IMG/VR virus record: IMGVR_UViG_3300034072_000488
Location: 1-31,198 of that record
DNA from: a virus
DNA length: 31,198 bases
Strand: one strand, 5' to 3'
Shown here: positions 8,515-31,147 of the stretch, piece by piece
Position numbering within the stretch: position 1 is the stretch's first letter
Layout: every line of letters begins with the position of its first letter
The notes under the pieces: generated by a model
Databases searched by the model: none
Seen by the model: the letters and a program-made list of their open reading frames with translations, nothing else
What the model was told of the DNA's origin: nothing
Made by a program: the position numbers and the translations under genes

Positions 8515-8680
8515 GGATCCTCCTCCTCTGGAACGGCAGCACGCTGCCGGGACGGTCGACTGTAGTTGGCATGAGAGCCGGCTGTGTCGCACGGTGTGCT
8601 ACGCAACGGTGCGCTGGGTGCAGATAGGCGACATCGGACAGGAACAGCCTGTGACAGAGTAGACAGCGGACAGCAGCCAT
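8435..8680 (-). CDS. Small Cys/His protein, possible zinc ribbon
   Basis: An 81-residue ORF starts at an ATG that overlaps the cytosine methyltransferase stop (TGATG). Its first 30 residues have CLLC and then HPAHRC and VAH, a plausible zinc site. The last 27 codons overlap the next gene in another frame and have weak coding character. The true product may be real only in its first part, or the overlap may be genuine. Confidence 0.5.
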   Translation of the reverse strand: MAAVRCLLCHRLFLSDVAYLHPAHRCVAHRATQPALMPTTVDRPGSVLPFQRRRIRGSHVCEEQLTDADASSRAEPIGSDA

Positions 8681-9780
8681 CAGCTCGGCTCCATCGTCGC
8701 AGCCAAATGCTTCGCCACCCAGCGCGCTACCGGAGCCACGACACCGTTACCACACATCTTGTACCGGACACTGTCACTGTTCGTCTTGCCGTCTGCCCGA
8801 TGCAACGTGTGATCGTCTGGCCAACCCATCAATCGCTCACACTCGACTGGGGTGAGTCTGCGGACTGCGAGGTCTGGTTGGACGACTGCGGGTGGTGATG
8901 GGATGCCGACACCGGATCCGACACGGACGGTGGGTGACAGGTTGTCGAGTGGTGTGACGCTGTGACTGCCGCCTTCTGCGACGAACCCGATTGGTTGAGT
9001 AATGAGATCACCGTGATCTTTGTAGTCGCGAGCAGCAAGACATGCGCCGGTGTCGTCATCGGCCCATTCTCTTGAACTGACGCGCCGAAAAGTGCCTACG
9101 CCTGTGTCGTATCCACCGATCGAGTTGAGAGCGAAGCCAATGCCCGATGCAGCGTCTCCGGCAGAGTCTTGCCTCGCCTCGTGGCTCTCCGAAGGATTCC
9201 TTGCGCTGCTCGAGGCGACAGGAAATAGCGGGTCGGGACATCGCCCGGCGACTGCAGGATTGAAATTAGACGCGATGAACACACGTCTCCGTCGCTGGGG
9301 CACTCCGAACCATTGTGCATCCAACGTTGCCCATTCGATGACCACCGCCCCTGCCGCGGCCAGCTCGTCAACGACGCGTGCCATTGCAGATCCTCCGTCG
9401 GCGTTGAGGAGTCCTGCGACGTTCTCAGCGACAGCCCAAGTTGGATACCGTCCATTGGTTGCTTGCCTCATTTCTGTGATGATGCGTACCGCTTCAAAGA
9501 ACAGGTGTGATCGTTGTCCATCGAGTCCGGCGCGTTTCCCGGCGACCGACAGATCCTGACATGGGAACCCATAGGTCACGACATCAACCGGTGGCAGCTC
9601 AAAACCTGACACGTCTGACACGTCGGACCAGCGAGGCACCTGTGGCCAACGGTGCGCCAGCGTCTGCTGACAGTGCGGATCCCACTCCACTTGGAACCGG
9701 CACTCGTAGCCTGCCGATTCGAAACCAAGATCAAAGCCTCCGACACCTGCGAACAGCGAACCAAACGTCAAACCGGTCAC
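8680..9780 (-). CDS. dcm: DNA (cytosine-5) methyltransferase
   Basis: The 366-residue protein has the ordered C5-methyltransferase motifs: I (FAGVGGFDLGFE, AdoMet binding), IV (GFPCQDLS with the catalytic Cys), VI (ENVAGL), VIII (QRRRRVFI) and X (MCGNGVVAPVA). It would add methyl groups to cytosine in a short recognition sequence set by the variable region between VIII and IX. There is no cognate restriction enzyme beside it, so shielding phage DNA from host restriction is the likely purpose. The start is a GTG in a GTGA overlap with the upstream gene. Confidence 0.9.
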   Translation of the reverse strand: MTGLTFGSLFAGVGGFDLGFESAGYECRFQVEWDPHCQQTLAHRWPQVPRWSDVSDVSGFELPPVDVVTYGFPCQDLSVAGKRAGLDGQRSHLFFEAVRIITEMRQATNGRYPTWAVAENVAGLLNADGGSAMARVVDELAAAGAVVIEWATLDAQWFGVPQRRRRVFIASNFNPAVAGRCPDPLFPVASSSARNPSESHEARQDSAGDAASGIGFALNSIGGYDTGVGTFRRVSSREWADDDTGACLAARDYKDHGDLITQPIGFVAEGGSHSVTPLDNLSPTVRVGSGVGIPSPPAVVQPDLAVRRLTPVECERLMGWPDDHTLHRADGKTNSDSVRYKMCGNGVVAPVARWVAKHLAATMEPS

Positions 9781-19800: not shown

Positions 19801-20208
19801 CTATGCGTGAATCGTGACAGCGAAATCGACTGCCAGATAATACTGGTCACCTTGCGATACCATCCGGACGTTGTCGGCACGCTCCACGATCAACGTCTGG
19901 ACGACACCGCCGAGCGTCCGGTCACCCTCGATCGCTGCACGCACACTTTTCGCACCACCGAAACTCATGTACTCGAACAGCTGCCGTTGTGAGCTGCGAT
20001 CCGACTGGCGACCAACCACCACCGTCGCAGTCCAATTGTGGACAGCGTTCCCACCGGAAAACGCATTCCAATACGCCACCGTGTCGGGGATCACAAACGC
20101 ACACGGTGTCGCCCACGAATCGGGCACGTGGTCAAACACTCGGAGCCCGCTGATCGTCTTGAGTCGAGTCTCCAGACCGTCAGCCTGCTGCTGCAGTGTT
20201 GCTGCCAT
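19801..20208 (-). CDS. Tail terminator-like protein
   Basis: The 135-residue protein has the look of a tail terminator or neck protein: an N-terminal helix (LQQQADGLETRLKTI), a beta sheet with WTATVVVGRQSDRSSQ, and a long helix (FEYMSFGGAKSVRAAI) followed by YYLAVDFAVTIHA. It would cap the tail and join it to the connector. It overlaps the connector gene stop by one base (TGATG). The family assignment is by pattern and place. Confidence 0.6.
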   Translation of the reverse strand: MAATLQQQADGLETRLKTISGLRVFDHVPDSWATPCAFVIPDTVAYWNAFSGGNAVHNWTATVVVGRQSDRSSQRQLFEYMSFGGAKSVRAAIEGDRTLGGVVQTLIVERADNVRMVSQGDQYYLAVDFAVTIHA

Positions 20209-20846
20209 CAGCCGACCAGCACCGGGTCGCGACGGTACGGTGCGAGCAGAGCTGCAGCGACCGGGTGAATCGCTTGACGCAACCGCATGATCCCGATGTC
20301 TCCGAACCCTGCGATGCCGAGCGGAGCGTCCACACTCTTGAAGATCGAAATCGCTTGGATCTGTGCAGCCTGTTCAACCGGATGTGGCAGATAGTCCGTC
20401 GTCGGATCATCGGTGCGCCATCCCCACTTCGCTGTCACCTCAATCACAGCCTGCCCGTACTCGAGTGGCCACTCGCGTGCGTCAATCGCACGGATCTTGG
20501 TGTATGGCCAATTCTGGCCACCGAGCTTCCCGTTCAACGGCTCGAGCTGGTAGTCGGATGCCGACCACGTCGTCTCAAACACGCCGTCACCATCCTCATC
20601 GGTTTTGATGACCAGCCCGCTGGTACTGGAAATGTCGTCAACCTCTAGCAGCCACGGTGTAAGAGCGGTGAACACCCGTGCGGTCGCGGTCGTCTGCGCA
20701 ACGAAATGCCTGTCACAGTACGCCTGCACCGTCTGCGTCGCTGCGTCAGCTGCGAGCGTCAACCGGTTGTCATCCACGGAATCGGATATGCCGAGGATCT
20801 CTTTCAGATCGTCTTCGGTGACAAGTCTGTCGGTGAGATGTGCCAT
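20208..20846 (-). CDS. Head-tail connector protein (gp6-like)
   Basis: The 212-residue protein starts with an all-helical domain typical of HK97 gp6-like adaptors (LVTEDDLKEILGISDS and AADAATQTVQAYCDRHF), followed by a beta-rich segment and a helical tail with a hydrophobic patch. It would bind under the portal to seal the head and receive the tail. The sugar cassette separates it from the capsid gene. The ATG has a GGGAACGG purine stretch just upstream. Confidence 0.7.
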   Translation of the reverse strand: MAHLTDRLVTEDDLKEILGISDSVDDNRLTLAADAATQTVQAYCDRHFVAQTTATARVFTALTPWLLEVDDISSTSGLVIKTDEDGDGVFETTWSASDYQLEPLNGKLGGQNWPYTKIRAIDAREWPLEYGQAVIEVTAKWGWRTDDPTTDYLPHPVEQAAQIQAISIFKSVDAPLGIAGFGDIGIMRLRQAIHPVAAALLAPYRRDPVLVG

Positions 20847-20893: not shown

Positions 20894-21760
20894 TCAGCAG
20901 ATGCCTGCCAGAGCCATCCGGATCCCTTCACACACATCAATCTCGGGTTGCCAGAACCGGTTCATCACCGTCGGATCACCAACCCGGTGATGACAGCCAA
21001 CCGGCATGCCACCGTGATGCCGGATCTCCCCTACATAGTCCATCTCCAGCATCGCCAGATGTGCGAGCTGGTTAAAGTCGGTCCCGATCCCGGTGCACAG
21101 ATTCACCGGTTCCCGATAGTCGTGCTCAACGACCGACAGCACCGCGCTCACCACGTCACGGATGTGAATGAAGTCCCGCACCTGTGTGCCGTCTCCCCAC
21201 ACCTCAAACGGATCTTTCCGTTGGGCTGCTCGACGAATGAAACTCGGGAACGGGTAGTCCAAATCTTGGTCGGTGCCGTACCCGGAGAACGGTCTGAACA
21301 CGTAGGTGGCGACACCGGCAGCTCGAGCGTGCTGCGCCAGATACTCACCCGTGAGTTTCGCCCACCCATATGTCATGTCGGGTTCACCGATCTCCCGCAG
21401 ATCGATGTGATCCTCGCGCAACAGTCGCCAGTCGTCGCGCTGCTGCAACCGGATCGGGTAGGCAGCGGATGACGAGAAGTAGACGAGCCGTTCCTGTCCG
21501 GTGGCGACGCACCAGTTGAACATGTCAGCGTCAATTGCGAGATCGGTGGCGACCTGCAACGGTGATCGCTCAATGGTGAGTCGACCGCCGACGATCGCAG
21601 CCAGATGGATCACGAGATCGAACCGGTCGGTGTGCCATTTGCACCAGTCTCGGAAGTCCGGTCCGGACTTGATGTCGACGATCGTGATGTCGGCACCGCG
21701 CAGCTGCCGTTGGAACTCGCGTCCGACGAACCCGTCGCCACCGGTCAACAGCACCTTCAC
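20894..21760 (-). CDS. NAD-dependent nucleotide-sugar epimerase/dehydratase
   Basis: The 288-residue protein is an extended short-chain dehydrogenase. The nucleotide-binding GGDGFVG is at 7-13. The catalytic Ser-Tyr-Lys set appears as SSSAAYP and YGWAKL, and HLAAIVGG follows the second strand. GDP-L-fucose synthases and UDP-glucose epimerases share this plan. It probably makes or alters a nucleotide sugar for the two glycosyltransferases upstream. The GTG start is in a GTGA overlap with the glycosyltransferase. It is the last gene of the sugar cassette, followed by a 47-base gap before the connector. Confidence 0.85.
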   Translation of the reverse strand: MKVLLTGGDGFVGREFQRQLRGADITIVDIKSGPDFRDWCKWHTDRFDLVIHLAAIVGGRLTIERSPLQVATDLAIDADMFNWCVATGQERLVYFSSSAAYPIRLQQRDDWRLLREDHIDLREIGEPDMTYGWAKLTGEYLAQHARAAGVATYVFRPFSGYGTDQDLDYPFPSFIRRAAQRKDPFEVWGDGTQVRDFIHIRDVVSAVLSVVEHDYREPVNLCTGIGTDFNQLAHLAMLEMDYVGEIRHHGGMPVGCHHRVGDPTVMNRFWQPEIDVCEGIRMALAGIC

Positions 21761-22443
21761 GAGATCGCCTTGCTGATCTTCCGCGCGTCACCCGCGAGCC
21801 GTTCCTGCACATACAGATCGAACAGCTGCCGATCGTGCTCGTAGACGTGAGCAGCGTTCGTCGTCTTGTACGTGTCGTCCCAGTCGGCCTTCTTCGCGAT
21901 CGGATGCATGTGCTCGATGATCACACCGTGGTGGTAGCGCAGCGTCCCGAGCTCCTCCCCGAGCTCCTTCCAGAAGTTGTCCAGATACATGTGGAGCAGC
22001 TCGGGTGGTGCCATCCATCCCAATGTGCGCACGATCCGTGCGTCGAGGAATACCTGTGTGGGGAGACGGTGCATCTGCAGCAGATCGTTGCCGTACACGA
22101 TGCCACCCGGTGTCGAGCGCAACGTCTCCAACAGGAACCCGTCCCAGCCGTCGGTGCGAGGACGATGATCGTCACCCATGAACCCGAGGAACGGTGCCCG
22201 ATCCCGGAAATAGAACGCTGCACTGTTCAGAGCCTTGTTCATGGTGCCGACGTTGTCGTTGACGAACAGGGACACACCGTCACGTTCTGCGAGCTCGTGG
22301 TGCAGCTCGAGCGTCGGATCGTCGCTGTCAACGACGAACACGAGCCGTGTGCTGCCGACGCATGTGTCGTCGAACATGTCTGCGAGCTCGAAACATGCTT
22401 GCGGTCTGCCTCGAGTCGGCACCAACACGATCAACTCATCCAT
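21757..22443 (-). CDS. Glycosyltransferase (GT-A type)
   Basis: From ATG 22443 (ATGGATGA overlap) it encodes 228 residues. The start is a typical GT-A sheet and nucleotide-binding turn (ELIVLVPTRGRP), with VFVVDSDDP and FMGDDHRPRTDGW supplying acidic metal-binding residues. It ends in a charged helical tail. It would transfer a sugar from a nucleotide donor. With the epimerase and second glycosyltransferase it forms a capsid/tail or host-surface decoration set. Acceptor unknown. Confidence 0.75.
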   Translation of the reverse strand: MDELIVLVPTRGRPQACFELADMFDDTCVGSTRLVFVVDSDDPTLELHHELAERDGVSLFVNDNVGTMNKALNSAAFYFRDRAPFLGFMGDDHRPRTDGWDGFLLETLRSTPGGIVYGNDLLQMHRLPTQVFLDARIVRTLGWMAPPELLHMYLDNFWKELGEELGTLRYHHGVIIEHMHPIAKKADWDDTYKTTNAAHVYEHDRQLFDLYVQERLAGDARKISKAIS

Positions 22444-23206
22444 CGATCGGCTCCAGTCGGTCAGCGACCCGTTCGTCAAGCCACAGATGCTTCAAATGCG
22501 TCGTCTTCACACCCGAGTCGATGTGCACCGGGATGCCGAGCGCGTTGGCACGCATACAGAACGACAGATCCTCCGAGATCCACGCACCCGATGTCTGATT
22601 CCGAACCGGGGAATACCAGCTCGGACCGTACTCTTCCGCTATCTGCTGGAATACCGATTTGTGGATCAGCACGAACGCCGAGCCGGTCCCGGCACATTGG
22701 AACAGCTGATCCCGAGGGTAGTCACGCACCACCGTGTACCCGGACACCTCGGTGCCATCCGGTGCGGTGCTCTTCATCCAGTCGAACACGGTCGGTGCCG
22801 GCTGCACCAGCATCCCGCCGACACCGTCCGGTCCGACCTCGCGCATCATCCAACACAGCCCGCCAACGATCGGTGCCGTCTCCCGATCAGCCGATCCCAT
22901 CAGCCGATCAACAGCGTTCGCTTCGAATCCCATGTCGGTGTCAATCCACATGAGCCAGTCGACGTGCGCCATCTTCAAGAACTGTTGCACCGTGTCGTTG
23001 CGGGCAGCGACGATCCCGCCAGTCCCATATTTGGTGGCGAGCCACCCGCCACCGATCACCCGCTGCTTGTTCGCCACGTCATACGAGATCAACGCCATCA
23101 AAGACTGATGCCACGAATGTGCCACTTCCATGCCGTGCACGTATGCGATCGCAACCTTGTCCGGTTTGCGTTGTGGCATCGGCTTCGCTTTCCGAGAACC
23201 ACCCAT
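22436..23206 (-). CDS. Glycosyltransferase (GT-A type, DxD)
   Basis: The 256-residue protein has a GT-A-like start (KVAIAYVHGMEV), an SIIVARN-like element (GGIVAARNDTVQQFL) and the metal-binding WIDTDMGF DxD motif near residue 90. A Trp/His-rich region and a helical end follow. It is soluble, with no membrane segment, so the acceptor is likely a phage protein or cytosolic donor-linked sugar. The start overlaps the previous stop by one base (TGATG). Confidence 0.75.
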   Translation of the reverse strand: MGGSRKAKPMPQRKPDKVAIAYVHGMEVAHSWHQSLMALISYDVANKQRVIGGGWLATKYGTGGIVAARNDTVQQFLKMAHVDWLMWIDTDMGFEANAVDRLMGSADRETAPIVGGLCWMMREVGPDGVGGMLVQPAPTVFDWMKSTAPDGTEVSGYTVVRDYPRDQLFQCAGTGSAFVLIHKSVFQQIAEEYGPSWYSPVRNQTSGAWISEDLSFCMRANALGIPVHIDSGVKTTHLKHLWLDERVADRLEPIDG

Positions 23207-23445
23207 CAGTCCACGTTCTTCTTCTGTCGACCCGGACCGCGACGCACCTCACCGGGTACAGCTGTCGCCTGCTCCACCGACCGTCGACCGACCTGCGGTG
23301 AGTCGTCCAGAGCACGGAACAGATCCGGTCGGTGCAACACCATCGGATCGTTCGCCTGCCAGACGACACCTTCGGTCAGCCGGACACGCTGACCATCGGG
23401 TCCAGCGGTCACACACGTCAACGTGGCCACAACATGCTGTGCCAT
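23206..23445 (-). CDS. Small head-region protein
   Basis: The 79-residue protein starts at ATG 23445 with GGAGG eight bases upstream; the GTG at 23454 is closer to the ribosome-binding site and less likely. It has a beta-rich core (VRLTEGVVWQANDPMVL) and a basic, Arg/Gly-rich tail. Similar short proteins with a promiscuous ADDP-like turn follow capsid genes in actinophages and may decorate the capsid. Function unknown. Confidence 0.6.
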   Translation of the reverse strand: MAQHVVATLTCVTAGPDGQRVRLTEGVVWQANDPMVLHRPDLFRALDDSPQVGRRSVEQATAVPGEVRRGPGRQKKNVD

Positions 23446-23478
23446 CGTCTTCACCTCCGTTGGCAGTGTGAGAGCAGT

Positions 23479-23516
23479 GTCGGGTCCGCTGCCACTGCCC
23501 TAACAGCGGACCCGAC
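23479..23516 (-). repeat. Perfect 13-bp inverted repeat
   Basis: Arms 23479-23491 and 23504-23516 are perfectly complementary with a 12-base loop. It lies 36 bases downstream of the terminator hairpin and before the next gene. It may be a second terminator arm, an RNA-stability element or an operator. Confidence 0.6.
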
Positions 23517-23551
23517 GAATTCCTGACGGCAGAATAGCAGCAAACGCGACA

Positions 23552-23579
23552 GAGCCCGGTGGATCACTCCACCGGGCTC
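23552..23579 (-). terminator. Terminator-like hairpin after the major capsid gene
   Basis: Perfect 12-bp GC-rich arms (23552-23563 and 23568-23579) with a four-base loop start 20 bases after the capsid stop. The following sequence is only weakly T-rich, so it may also be a processing or partial terminator that sets high capsid expression apart from the downstream genes. Confidence 0.7.
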
Positions 23580-23599
23580 GATCGCAGACTTGCGTCAGA

Positions 23600-24997
23600 T
23601 CACTGGTTCTGCAGGAGACGGAACCCGAGATCGTTGACCGAGTCGTACCCGTGGCGAGCGTAGGCGAACCAGCCACGCTGACCCGACGGCAGGTTGTTGC
23701 CCGTCGCGAACAGGTGCGGGATCAGCTCGACGCTCATGCCGGCACGCTGCGCCACGAGGAAGTTGCTGAAGTCACCGACCACGAGGATGTTCGCAGCACC
23801 GGTCGTCCCGGTGAACTCCGGAGCGTAGTCGGTGGTCCGGATCGGACGACCGAACAGGGTGCCGATCCCGCCAGCAGCGAGATCCACCGTGTAGTACGCC
23901 GAGTCGGCACCAGCGGAGAACGCACGAATCTCGTTCTCCACGTCGGTGTTCATGATCCACGTCGCGCTCGAGCGGTACCGCTCCGGCAGGCTCTTCCACA
24001 CCTTGAGCAGATCGGCTCCGGTGAACGTGCCATCGGTGGTCACCACGACCTCGACGTTCGTGTTCGCGTCGAGAGCGGTGAAGATACCGGTGGGCTGGCT
24101 GGAGCCGGTGCCGTTGATGGTGCCGTTGGCCACGAGATCGATGTAGCCAGCGTCGAGCAGTCGACGCATCTCAGCAGCGAACGCAGGGTAGTCCTGCCCG
24201 ACCTCGATCGAGTAGGGGATGAACCCGCGAGCGGTGTACACCGGGACCGACGGCTGCGCGAGGGTCGGAGCGTCATCGCTGACCTCGGTGCCCTCACCGT
24301 CGTAGCTCCAGCTGACACCAGCCGAGGAAACACCCTTCCACTCGTCGGTGGTGATGGTGACGACCCGAGCCAGATCCAGCACCGGAGCAGCACCCGCACC
24401 CGACGTGAGGATGATCGACGGGTCGATCAGCACCGGGATGCCGAAACCGCCAGCGGTGTCGGTGCCCTCGCTCATGGCGCGGTACTCGTTGAGCGCACGA
24501 GCCTCTTCGGCGGTGAACGCCGGAGCGGACTGGGTGACACCCTTCATGAACGCGCTGCGGTACGCCTCGGACTCGGTGAGCACCATGCGCTTCGCGATGA
24601 CACCACCGTCGGTGAGAGCGTTGCGGGTGCGGAGCAGAGCCTCCACGTGGTCACCGTTGCGGGCAGCGAGATGCTTGCCGTCACGATCGAGGATCGCGAG
24701 CGCAGCGTCGCGCAGCTCCTGACGACCGGCGCGAGCCACGTCGATGTCGGTGGCGGTGCGCTTCATCACCTGCGGAGCGTCAACGCCGGACGCACGCTCG
24801 ACGACAGCCTCACGAGCTGCAGCGACGCGAGCCTCGCGAGCCTCGAGCTGGTCGAACTCGGCCTTGCGGGCCTCGTGCTCGGTGAGAGCAGCGTCGAGCT
24901 CGAGGTTCTCGTCCTCGGTGATGTCGACCTTGTCGGACAGCTCGACGATGCGGGAGCGCAGCTCCTCGAGCTGCTTGCGGATCTCTTCCTTCTTCAT
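23600..24997 (-). CDS. Major capsid protein (HK97 fold) with N-terminal scaffold domain
   Basis: From ATG 24997 the product has 465 residues. Residues 1-65 are a highly charged coiled coil (RKQLEELRSRIVELSDKV), and up to about residue 165 it forms the delta/scaffold domain that the protease removes. The shell part starts at about residue 170 (YRAMSEGTDTAGGFGIPVLI), and includes a P-domain-like helix and ends with GYDSVNDLGFRLLQ. GGAG six bases upstream and the one-base gap to the protease stop fix the start. A longer in-frame extension overlaps the protease gene and is rejected. Confidence 0.9.
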   Translation of the reverse strand: MKKEEIRKQLEELRSRIVELSDKVDITEDENLELDAALTEHEARKAEFDQLEAREARVAAAREAVVERASGVDAPQVMKRTATDIDVARAGRQELRDAALAILDRDGKHLAARNGDHVEALLRTRNALTDGGVIAKRMVLTESEAYRSAFMKGVTQSAPAFTAEEARALNEYRAMSEGTDTAGGFGIPVLIDPSIILTSGAGAAPVLDLARVVTITTDEWKGVSSAGVSWSYDGEGTEVSDDAPTLAQPSVPVYTARGFIPYSIEVGQDYPAFAAEMRRLLDAGYIDLVANGTINGTGSSQPTGIFTALDANTNVEVVVTTDGTFTGADLLKVWKSLPERYRSSATWIMNTDVENEIRAFSAGADSAYYTVDLAAGGIGTLFGRPIRTTDYAPEFTGTTGAANILVVGDFSNFLVAQRAGMSVELIPHLFATGNNLPSGQRGWFAYARHGYDSVNDLGFRLLQNQ

Positions 24998-29380: not shown

Positions 29381-29804
29381 GCACCTCCTCCAACGCTGAA
29401 CGCACCTTCACCTCTGCGACACCGAGCCGGGCACGATCAACCGGGCTGAACCCGAGCATCGACAGGTTGTCTGCGATCTCCTTGTCGAGCGCACGCAGCC
29501 CGGCACGATCCCGCCAATCCCCTTCACGCAACACCTGCACACGCAACATCTGACGCTCATCCAGCTGCTCACACACCAACAGCAGCAGCTCTGCGTCAGT
29601 CTCAGCGATCCACGCCCGACCCGACTGCCACGCACGCTCCCACAAGGTGCGACCCGCAGACGACAGCGGACGCGGAGGATCCGGGATCCCGATCGCAGCC
29701 GGCAACAACTCAACCACCGACACCTCCGGCAACGGTCGCCTCCCCGGATTACCGGTGCGACGCTTCTGCTCAGTCGGTTTCGGTTTCCTACCAGTCGTCG
29801 CCAT
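29346..29804 (-). CDS. terS: Small terminase subunit (P27-like)
   Basis: From ATG 29804 the product has 152 residues. The N-terminus is basic (TGRKPKPTEQKRRTGNPGRR), as in P27-family small terminases. Helical segments follow (RTLWERAWQSGRAWI and DAELLLLVCEQLDERQM) and a charged helix ends the protein. It recognises the packaging site and loads the large subunit. The start overlaps the methyltransferase stop (TGATG) with AGGAG five bases upstream. Confidence 0.82.
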   Translation of the reverse strand: MATTGRKPKPTEQKRRTGNPGRRPLPEVSVVELLPAAIGIPDPPRPLSSAGRTLWERAWQSGRAWIAETDAELLLLVCEQLDERQMLRVQVLREGDWRDRAGLRALDKEIADNLSMLGFSPVDRARLGVAEVKVRSALEEVRARRERREGAS

Positions 29805-31147
29805 CACTGCTCCTTACAGAAATCATGTTCGTTGCCGGTCGACTCGGCAACCGGCAACCTGCCAGTCAGATCCTGCCACCTCCGACAGATCACATCCACA
29901 AACTTCGGATCCAACTCCATCAGACGAGCCTTCCGACCCTCGAGCTCGGCAGCGACCAGCGTCGTCCCCGAACCACCGAACGGATCAAACACAACATTGC
30001 CACGCTGCGAACTGTTCCGAACATGACGCTGCACCAGCCCGACCGGCTTCATCGTCGGATGCAAATCAGACACAGCCGGCTTCGCATACTGCTGCACCGT
30101 CGTCTCCAACACCTTCACCGCCAGATCCGAGCCAGACACCACGAACACGTGACCGCCAGCAGTGATCTTCAACCCGTCATCCGTCCACACCGCATCCACC
30201 GTCGGCTCATCAGCGATCGTCGTCTGCTTCCGTCGACCGAACCAATAATGCTTCGCACCCGGCTTCCAGCCGAACAGGATCGGCTCATGCCTCCACTGGT
30301 AATCCGAACGCGACAACGTCATTGAGCTCTTCATCCAGATCAAACAACTCGCCAAATGGAACCCAGCATTCACGAACGCGTTCCCGAACGGCATCCGCTC
30401 CGACTCCGAATGCGCCACATAAATCGAGCCACCCGGACGCAACACCTCAAAACACGACAACATCGCCTGCGAAATCAGATCAGCGAACTCGTCACGATCC
30501 ATGTCGTCATTCAGAATCGCACCAGCCTTCCCGACCACCGCCACGTTGTATGGAGGATCAGTCCACACAAGATCCGCAGACTCGCCCGCCATCAACTTCG
30601 CGACATCCGTCGAACTCGTCGAATCGCCACACATCACCCGATGCTCACCGAGCAGCCACACATCACCCGGAACCGTGATCGACGGAACCGACACCGGCAA
30701 CACATCCAGCCCGTCACCCGGAGTCGGACGATCCACATCAATCTCCGAAATCAGATCCAACACCGACTGCTCATCCCAACCCGCATCCTCGAGCAGCTCC
30801 AGATCCGCAGCACGCACCTCCTCGATCAACGCGAGCAGCGCAGCATCGTCATACGAACCGAGCTCGGCGGTCCGGTTGTCAGCCAGAGCGAACGCCTTCG
30901 CATGCGCATCATCATCGTCAACCCACACCACCGCGATCTCCGACCAGCCGAGCCGGCGCGCAGCCTGCAACGTGTGGTTCCCAGCGATCACCGTCCTATC
31001 GCCACGTCGAGCCACGATCGGCTTCCGCTGACCGAACCGGTCCAGCGACGCAGCCACCGCATCCACATCACCCTTGCGAGGGTTCCCCGGCAACAGCTCA
31101 AGCTCGTCAATCGCAACCGCCAACGGCTGCAAGCCTTCCACAATCAT
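29804..31147 (-). CDS. ParB-like domain fused to an N4/N6 DNA methyltransferase
   Basis: The 447-residue protein starts with a ParB/sulfiredoxin-like domain (residues 10-95, with LLPGNPRKGDVDAVAASL and VIAGNHTLQAARRLG). The methyltransferase follows, with the catalytic DPPY (VWTDPPYN, near 198) before the AdoMet-binding FDPFGGSGTT (near 396), the order of beta-type amino-methyltransferases. It would methylate adenine (N6) or cytosine (N4). Such fusions are common at the start of phage packaging regions. GGAGGAATC precedes the ATG. Only 51 bases lie between it and the right edge, with no clear promoter. Confidence 0.88.
   Translation of the reverse strand: MIVEGLQPLAVAIDELELLPGNPRKGDVDAVAASLDRFGQRKPIVARRGDRTVIAGNHTLQAARRLGWSEIAVVWVDDDDAHAKAFALADNRTAELGSYDDAALLALIEEVRAADLELLEDAGWDEQSVLDLISEIDVDRPTPGDGLDVLPVSVPSITVPGDVWLLGEHRVMCGDSTSSTDVAKLMAGESADLVWTDPPYNVAVVGKAGAILNDDMDRDEFADLISQAMLSCFEVLRPGGSIYVAHSESERMPFGNAFVNAGFHLASCLIWMKSSMTLSRSDYQWRHEPILFGWKPGAKHYWFGRRKQTTIADEPTVDAVWTDDGLKITAGGHVFVVSGSDLAVKVLETTVQQYAKPAVSDLHPTMKPVGLVQRHVRNSSQRGNVVFDPFGGSGTTLVAAELEGRKARLMELDPKFVDVICRRWQDLTGRLPVAESTGNEHDFCKEQ

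Follow-up and report, generated by a model that had tools for sequence, protein, structure and literature searches.

The three tightly coupled genes that follow the capsid region in the phage sequence analysed here (the window, a linear IMG/VR virus record of 31,198 bases) probably make up the variable section of a locus for virion glycosylation, in which a first glycosyltransferase (GT1) would initiate a glycan on a putative acceptor in the particle and a second (GT2) would extend it. The island is real, conserved and functionally coherent, and is best read as a variant of the virion glycosylation already reported for mycobacteriophage Che8, rather than as a new kind of system. A virion target is favoured because the linkage of GT1 to the capsid gene is nearly fixed, the genes that accompany it are mostly of glycan type and the mycobacteriophages provide a precedent. 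The donor, the acceptor, the order of action and the benefit of the cassette, as proposed below, are those that we infer.

The island and its enzymes

The late genes of the window are all encoded on the minus strand and run from the small terminase, TerL, portal, S78 protease and HK97 capsid genes through a small connector-like gene to GT1, GT2, the epimerase, the head-tail connector/adaptor, the major tail protein and the tail genes. The HK97-fold major capsid protein (23600-24997, minus strand; PF05065, 7e-34; probable start MKKEEI) is the candidate acceptor. The left edge of the insertion site is the small conserved head-tail gene preceding GT1 (23206-23445, minus strand), which matches the head-tail connector family phrog_9538 at 7e-6, starts at ATG 23445 behind GGAGG (the ORF list opens the same gene at GTG 23454) and is kept in phages that have no island. 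The right edge is the head-tail connector (20208-20846, minus strand; PF05135; phrog_442, 1e-17), whose ATG lies 47 nt from the end of the epimerase gene. The original prediction placed the cassette between capsid and connector; its border with the connector is retained here, but on the other side it follows the small connector-like gene and not the capsid gene itself.

The three ORFs are co-directional on the minus strand and coupled as first described: the stop codon of the small gene overlaps the start of GT1 (22436-23206; 256 aa) in TGATG at 23206, the GT1 stop (22436) is overlapped by the ATG of GT2 in ATGGATGA and the GT2 stop overlaps the GTG start of the epimerase in GTGA at 21760. GT2 (21757-22443) has 228 aa when read from ATG 22443, its ORF opening at TTG 22479, and the epimerase (20894-21760) has 288 aa. 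The base composition of the island carries no foreign signature when compared with the window (G+C 0.602 vs 0.607). Elsewhere, the window encodes a PAPS-reductase-like protein (phrog_424; 519-1688), a C5-cytosine methyltransferase (8680-9780) and a ParB/N6-N4 methyltransferase fusion (29804-31147), so that this small phage has two DNA methyltransferases, both outside the island.

The assignment of the products as two GT-A-like glycosyltransferases and an NDP-sugar epimerase was borne out by family, fold and domain searches. GT1 and GT2 had no match in a Pfam search and belong to the PHROG glycosyltransferase families phrog_34859 (4e-20) and phrog_14945 (4.5e-51), respectively. Their AlphaFold2 models are confident (pLDDT 92 each) and a Foldseek structure search returned GT-A enzymes as the top matches of both, from different families: the glycosyltransferase domain of lysyl hydroxylase LH3, viral (STIV) A197, Mnn9 and polypeptide GalNAc-transferases for GT1, and PcManGT, the fucosyltransferase WrtF, chondroitin polymerase and TarS/TarP for GT2. 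With TM-scores of about 0.4-0.68 the relation is distant, and these are matches of modelled folds from which donor and acceptor cannot be read. Across 41 sequences, D89, D91, E212, D213 and H237 of GT1 are invariant and correspond to a DxD metal motif, an acidic ED pair and a C-terminal His.

The third product (PF01370 Epimerase, 3e-33) is an NAD-dependent nucleotide-sugar epimerase/dehydratase of the extended SDR type, with conserved TGxxGxxG, SSS and YxxxK motifs and an intact Ser-Tyr-Lys triad; it is the proposed maker of the donor sugar. Its closest solved relatives are plant GDP-mannose 3,5-epimerase and GDP-L-fucose synthase (9e-20). In these enzymes the Cys of SSxCIYP is catalytic. The window protein has Ala at this position (SSSAAYP), relatives having Ala or Val after SSSA, and 3,5-epimerisation of that kind is therefore unlikely; the enzyme is more likely to be a 4-epimerase, a reductase or a dehydratase.

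No hydrophobic segment was found in any of the three proteins, in agreement with the predicted lack of membrane anchors. The dN/dS values (about 0.1 for GT1, about 0.2 for GT2 and 0.1-0.2 for the epimerase; 0.08-0.23 over all three where estimable) indicate that purifying selection acts on all three genes and, together with the recurrence of the arrangement in dozens of relatives, place the observation beyond chance.

Recurrence, exchange and loss of the island in relatives

Relatives were collected by two scans. Among the 38 loci of a GT1-seeded scan, the capsid gene lies just upstream of GT1 wherever the upstream sequence suffices, with one exception (L029). A capsid-seeded scan, in which GT1 was not presupposed, gave 80 loci, 66 of which had at least 1,200 nt downstream and were counted; GT1 stands behind the capsid and small genes in 64 of the 66, counts that include many close relatives and are not independent. 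The expectation that head regions normally hold head-to-tail genes only fails for this group of phages, in which an island normally occupies this site. A scan of viral contigs with the epimerase alone gave no relatives, its peptide patterns being too specific, and relatives of this gene were reached via the GT1 and GT2 loci.

In bacterial genomes GT1 was found in 14 contigs, behind an HK97 capsid gene in 11 of them. These belong to Spongiactinospora, Amycolatopsis, Streptomyces, Nonomuraea, Acrocarpospora and actinobacterial MAGs, plus one Gemmatimonadetes MAG. Since they are nearly all actinobacterial, the hosts of GT1 phages are mainly actinobacteria, and that of the window virus is probably one too. 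Linkage of GT1 to the capsid and small genes persists down to about 33% identity, and a remote homologue lies one gene behind the capsid gene of MW202496, another phage type. In the cultured relatives of the window capsid, from Gordonia and Mycobacterium phages, the capsid gene, the small gene and the connector follow one another directly, which shows the insertion site in its empty state. Distances of GT1 correlate less well with those of the capsid (r 0.57) than do those of the connector (0.82), so GT1 itself has sometimes been exchanged; a signal of capsid-GT1 coevolution beyond common descent was sought and none was found.

As judged from the compared loci, GT1 is the fixed part of the island and the genes after it are exchanged between phages. 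Second glycosyltransferases behind GT1 number 61 ORFs or domains, and about two dozen of these are GT2-like domains fused to GT1, which suggest sequential action. Further cargo comprises three methyltransferase families, epimerases (20), a TOD1/MUCI70-like glycosyltransferase (12), a 2OG-Fe(II) oxygenase (6) and a multi-pass membrane protein family (10). The nearest relatives (L002-L005; capsid 90%) have a GT1 of 82-85% identity but a differing second glycosyltransferase (27%) and a methyltransferase, and three other loci (L040, L041, L044) have the GT2 and epimerase of the window along with a methyltransferase absent from it. The oxygenase (family k7, PF13640; e.g. L025:9245-10078) could hydroxylate the acceptor residue or a sugar. 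The membrane family (k6; L066, L084, L093, L096, L098, L103, L104, L107, L110 and L128) has 210-297 aa and 4-6 hydrophobic segments and is usually the only partner of GT1; the one member tested had no Pfam or PHROG match. A second variable site was also seen, with about 500 to 1,400 nt extra between the capsid and small genes (L043, L067, L068, L109, L111, L112, L114, L118, L119).

Natural loss of the island is seen in L087 and L089, which have 353 nt between capsid and connector and are nested beside GT1 carriers (support 0.999); a third contig with a near-identical capsid, L090, ends too early to be scored. No GT1 was found elsewhere in these two contigs, which are short. An islandless relative shows that the island genes are dispensable. 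Of 33 conserved Ser/Thr columns of the capsid, L087 and L089 have lost two, the adjacent Thr417 and Thr418, alongside a two-residue deletion. The Thr-Thr codons of the window, in the capsid loop FTG-TT-GAAN, are at 23801-23806 on the minus strand (residues 417-418 counted from 25054, the position being computed from the residue number). GT1 carriers have Thr or Ser at position 418, with a weighted frequency that rounds to 1.00 at two decimals (114 sequences). The cultured islandless phages Babsiella and Sbash also have Thr/Ser in this loop, and the loop separates cultured islandless phages only partly. The pair is accordingly a candidate acceptor that came from a single loss event after many columns had been screened, and is a lead rather than proof. 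The C-termini of capsid and tail tube were considered as acceptors and set aside, as carriers and the islandless lineage do not differ clearly there, except for a capsid end of QNQ/QNT vs QTA.

A hairpin in the leader of the small gene

The leader between the capsid and small genes (23443-23603, minus strand) contains two strong hairpins (z = -5.6) and has no Rfam match. The first (23552-23579, minus strand; GAGCCCGGTGGA-GTGA-TCCACCGGGCTC) is directly behind the capsid stop codon and resembles a terminator without a clear U-run. The second, ahead of the block of small gene and GT1 (23479-23516, minus strand), has a 16-bp stem and the loop GGGCAG (23495-23500). Ten nucleotides downstream of it and just upstream of the Shine-Dalgarno sequence GGAGG (23454-23458), the motif CACTGCC (23462-23468, minus strand) is complementary to the loop. 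GGGCAGT is not over-represented across the whole window.

In relatives, the stem sequence varies freely (52 distinct arms) and the loop and downstream repeats change together, as GGGCAG/CTGCCC, GGGTAG/CTACCC, GGGCGG/CCGCCC, GGGTGGT/ACCACCC, CTCCCGGGA/TCCCGGGAG and others, giving 33 distinct cores. Loop complementarity of at least 6 nt was found in 52 of 74 non-redundant loci, whereas swapping or shuffling the downstream sequence gave 14% and hairpins from elsewhere gave 10%; the hairpin was picked by the same complementarity, which somewhat inflates the count, and a choice by position only gave the same pattern. The loop complement occurs downstream in 68% and upstream in 10%, and a direct copy in 10%. 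The best complementary site overlaps the region from Shine-Dalgarno sequence to start codon in 14 of 49 cases and is just upstream of that region in the other 35. Seven records that lack GT1 (about five lineages) have a hairpin with a complementarity of only 3-4 nt, and in L043, L067 and L068 the element stays with the small gene despite other sequence behind the capsid.

We read the element as a candidate pseudoknot or switch that acts on how the small gene is translated and, through coupling, on GT1. Pairing within the same molecule to the nearest repeat is sterically doubtful, as the stem has about 15 bp and in many cases is separated from this repeat by only 2 nt, and a later repeat or another partner may therefore be meant. 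The hairpin is possibly a new cis-regulatory RNA and could be an undescribed translational control element.

Target of the enzymes and comparison with known systems

In the mechanism that we propose, the epimerase would convert a host nucleotide sugar into the required donor, and GT1, a cytosolic enzyme presumably made alongside the head proteins, would attach the initial sugar to Ser/Thr in a protein of the virion; the major capsid protein is the likeliest substrate and the tail tube a less likely one. GT2 would then lengthen the glycan, which in relatives methyltransferases and other enzymes would complete. Because GT1 is fixed while the following genes are exchanged, such exchange would alter the chemical surface of the particle, as a kind of serotype, with the attachment step kept. 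In their layout, the glycosyltransferase genes and virion genes share a strand, overlap and are conserved in their linkage. The virion target suggested by the original prediction is favoured by the near-obligatory GT1 behind the capsid, by the unrelated glycan enzymes of phage phiPsal1 at the same site and by the loss of the Thr-Thr pair together with the island; on the other side, the islandless relative does without the genes, and the acceptor is putative.

The main rival, which we regard as rather unlikely, is that, late in infection, the enzymes modify wall teichoic acid or some other glycan of the host envelope and so block superinfection or keep progeny from sticking to debris. Such host-surface modification is a usual reading of phage glycosyltransferases in the literature (PMC10202952; PMC7029224), the fold of GT2 resembles the teichoic-acid and O-antigen/capsule transferases TarS, TarP and WrtF, and the ten islands of relatives in which GT1 is accompanied by a predicted multi-pass membrane protein fit envelope chemistry better than a virion target. 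All three window enzymes are soluble, however, and their block has neither a membrane partner nor the membrane flippase GtrA and membrane-anchored GtrB of serotype-converting gtr clusters; this reading would also not explain why the genes are tied, almost without exception, to a single place in the head operon and not to early or lysogeny genes. It is improbable that the enzymes are unconnected to the virion and sit between small gene and connector just because insertions are tolerated there: content is freely exchanged and one lineage is islandless, but the cargo is non-random and mostly of glycan enzymes, nearly every phage of the group has the same first gene and the genes are under purifying selection. 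Glycosylation of a modified base in the phage DNA is very unlikely, since, although phrog_2675, whose annotation is DNA methyltransferase, is a further match of GT2 and the window encodes the C5-cytosine methyltransferase, the latter is not clustered with the glycosyltransferases, a thymidylate-synthase/hydroxymethylase-like gene (PF00303) is absent from the window and from 13 of 14 related records, which may be incomplete, and a search without positive control gave no Tet/JBP match.

With virion glycosylation as the preferred reading, a fuller version can be put forward tentatively, and on balance with some doubt: GT1 would act as a protein O-glycosyltransferase, beginning a glycan on the Thr-rich loop of the HK97 capsid, swapped downstream enzymes would change the coat, and the block would be held in check by a new cis-acting leader hairpin pairing around the next ribosome-binding site. 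Virion glycosylation has been reported for few tailed phages. If our reading is true, a locus in the head operon that combines a fixed glycosyltransferase with partners that can be exchanged would be a common and testable trait of environmental phages and of prophages of culturable actinobacteria, and one that provides a candidate acceptor site and natural pairs with and without the island.

A search of the literature on capsid-adjacent glycosyltransferase loci and on pseudoknots behind capsid genes found nothing closer than the systems compared here. The plant GDP-mannose 3,5-epimerase and GDP-L-fucose synthase share the SDR motifs of the window epimerase and differ in the SSxCIYP Cys, which is Ala in the phage family. 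Streptomyces phages (Stanwilliamsviridae) carry GT2 homologues of about 40-44% identity, likewise in an adjacent glycosyltransferase pair; unlike in the window, the pair lies outside the head module, the donor-sugar gene is a heptose-type nucleotidyltransferase and GT1 has no match.

According to later papers that cite Freeman 2023 (PMC11256854, PMC12619734), mycobacteriophages such as Che8 carry glycans on the C-termini of capsid and tail-tube proteins; PMC13313380 likewise refers to this precedent. On this account, Che8 and its relatives resemble the window in being actinophages with phage-encoded glycosyltransferases and a virion-protein target, which for the window is only proposed. In the F1 phage Maravista, a relative of Che8, the glycosyltransferase genes are placed towards the 3' end of the genome (PMC11256854), whereas those of the window are inside the head operon. 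In the phage collection, GT1 gave three remote matches and no mycobacteriophage was among the matches listed for GT2.

A further close system is that of Pontimonas phage phiPsal1 (MG835450). Its glycosyltransferases, unlike those of the window, were not detected by the GT1 or GT2 profiles, and its glycan enzymes have had no experimental work (PMC6106888). It is similar to the window in genome size and in the order of its head genes, and also has glycan enzymes between capsid and neck genes, in this case a group I glycosyltransferase, a SAM methyltransferase and a GT2-family glycosyltransferase.
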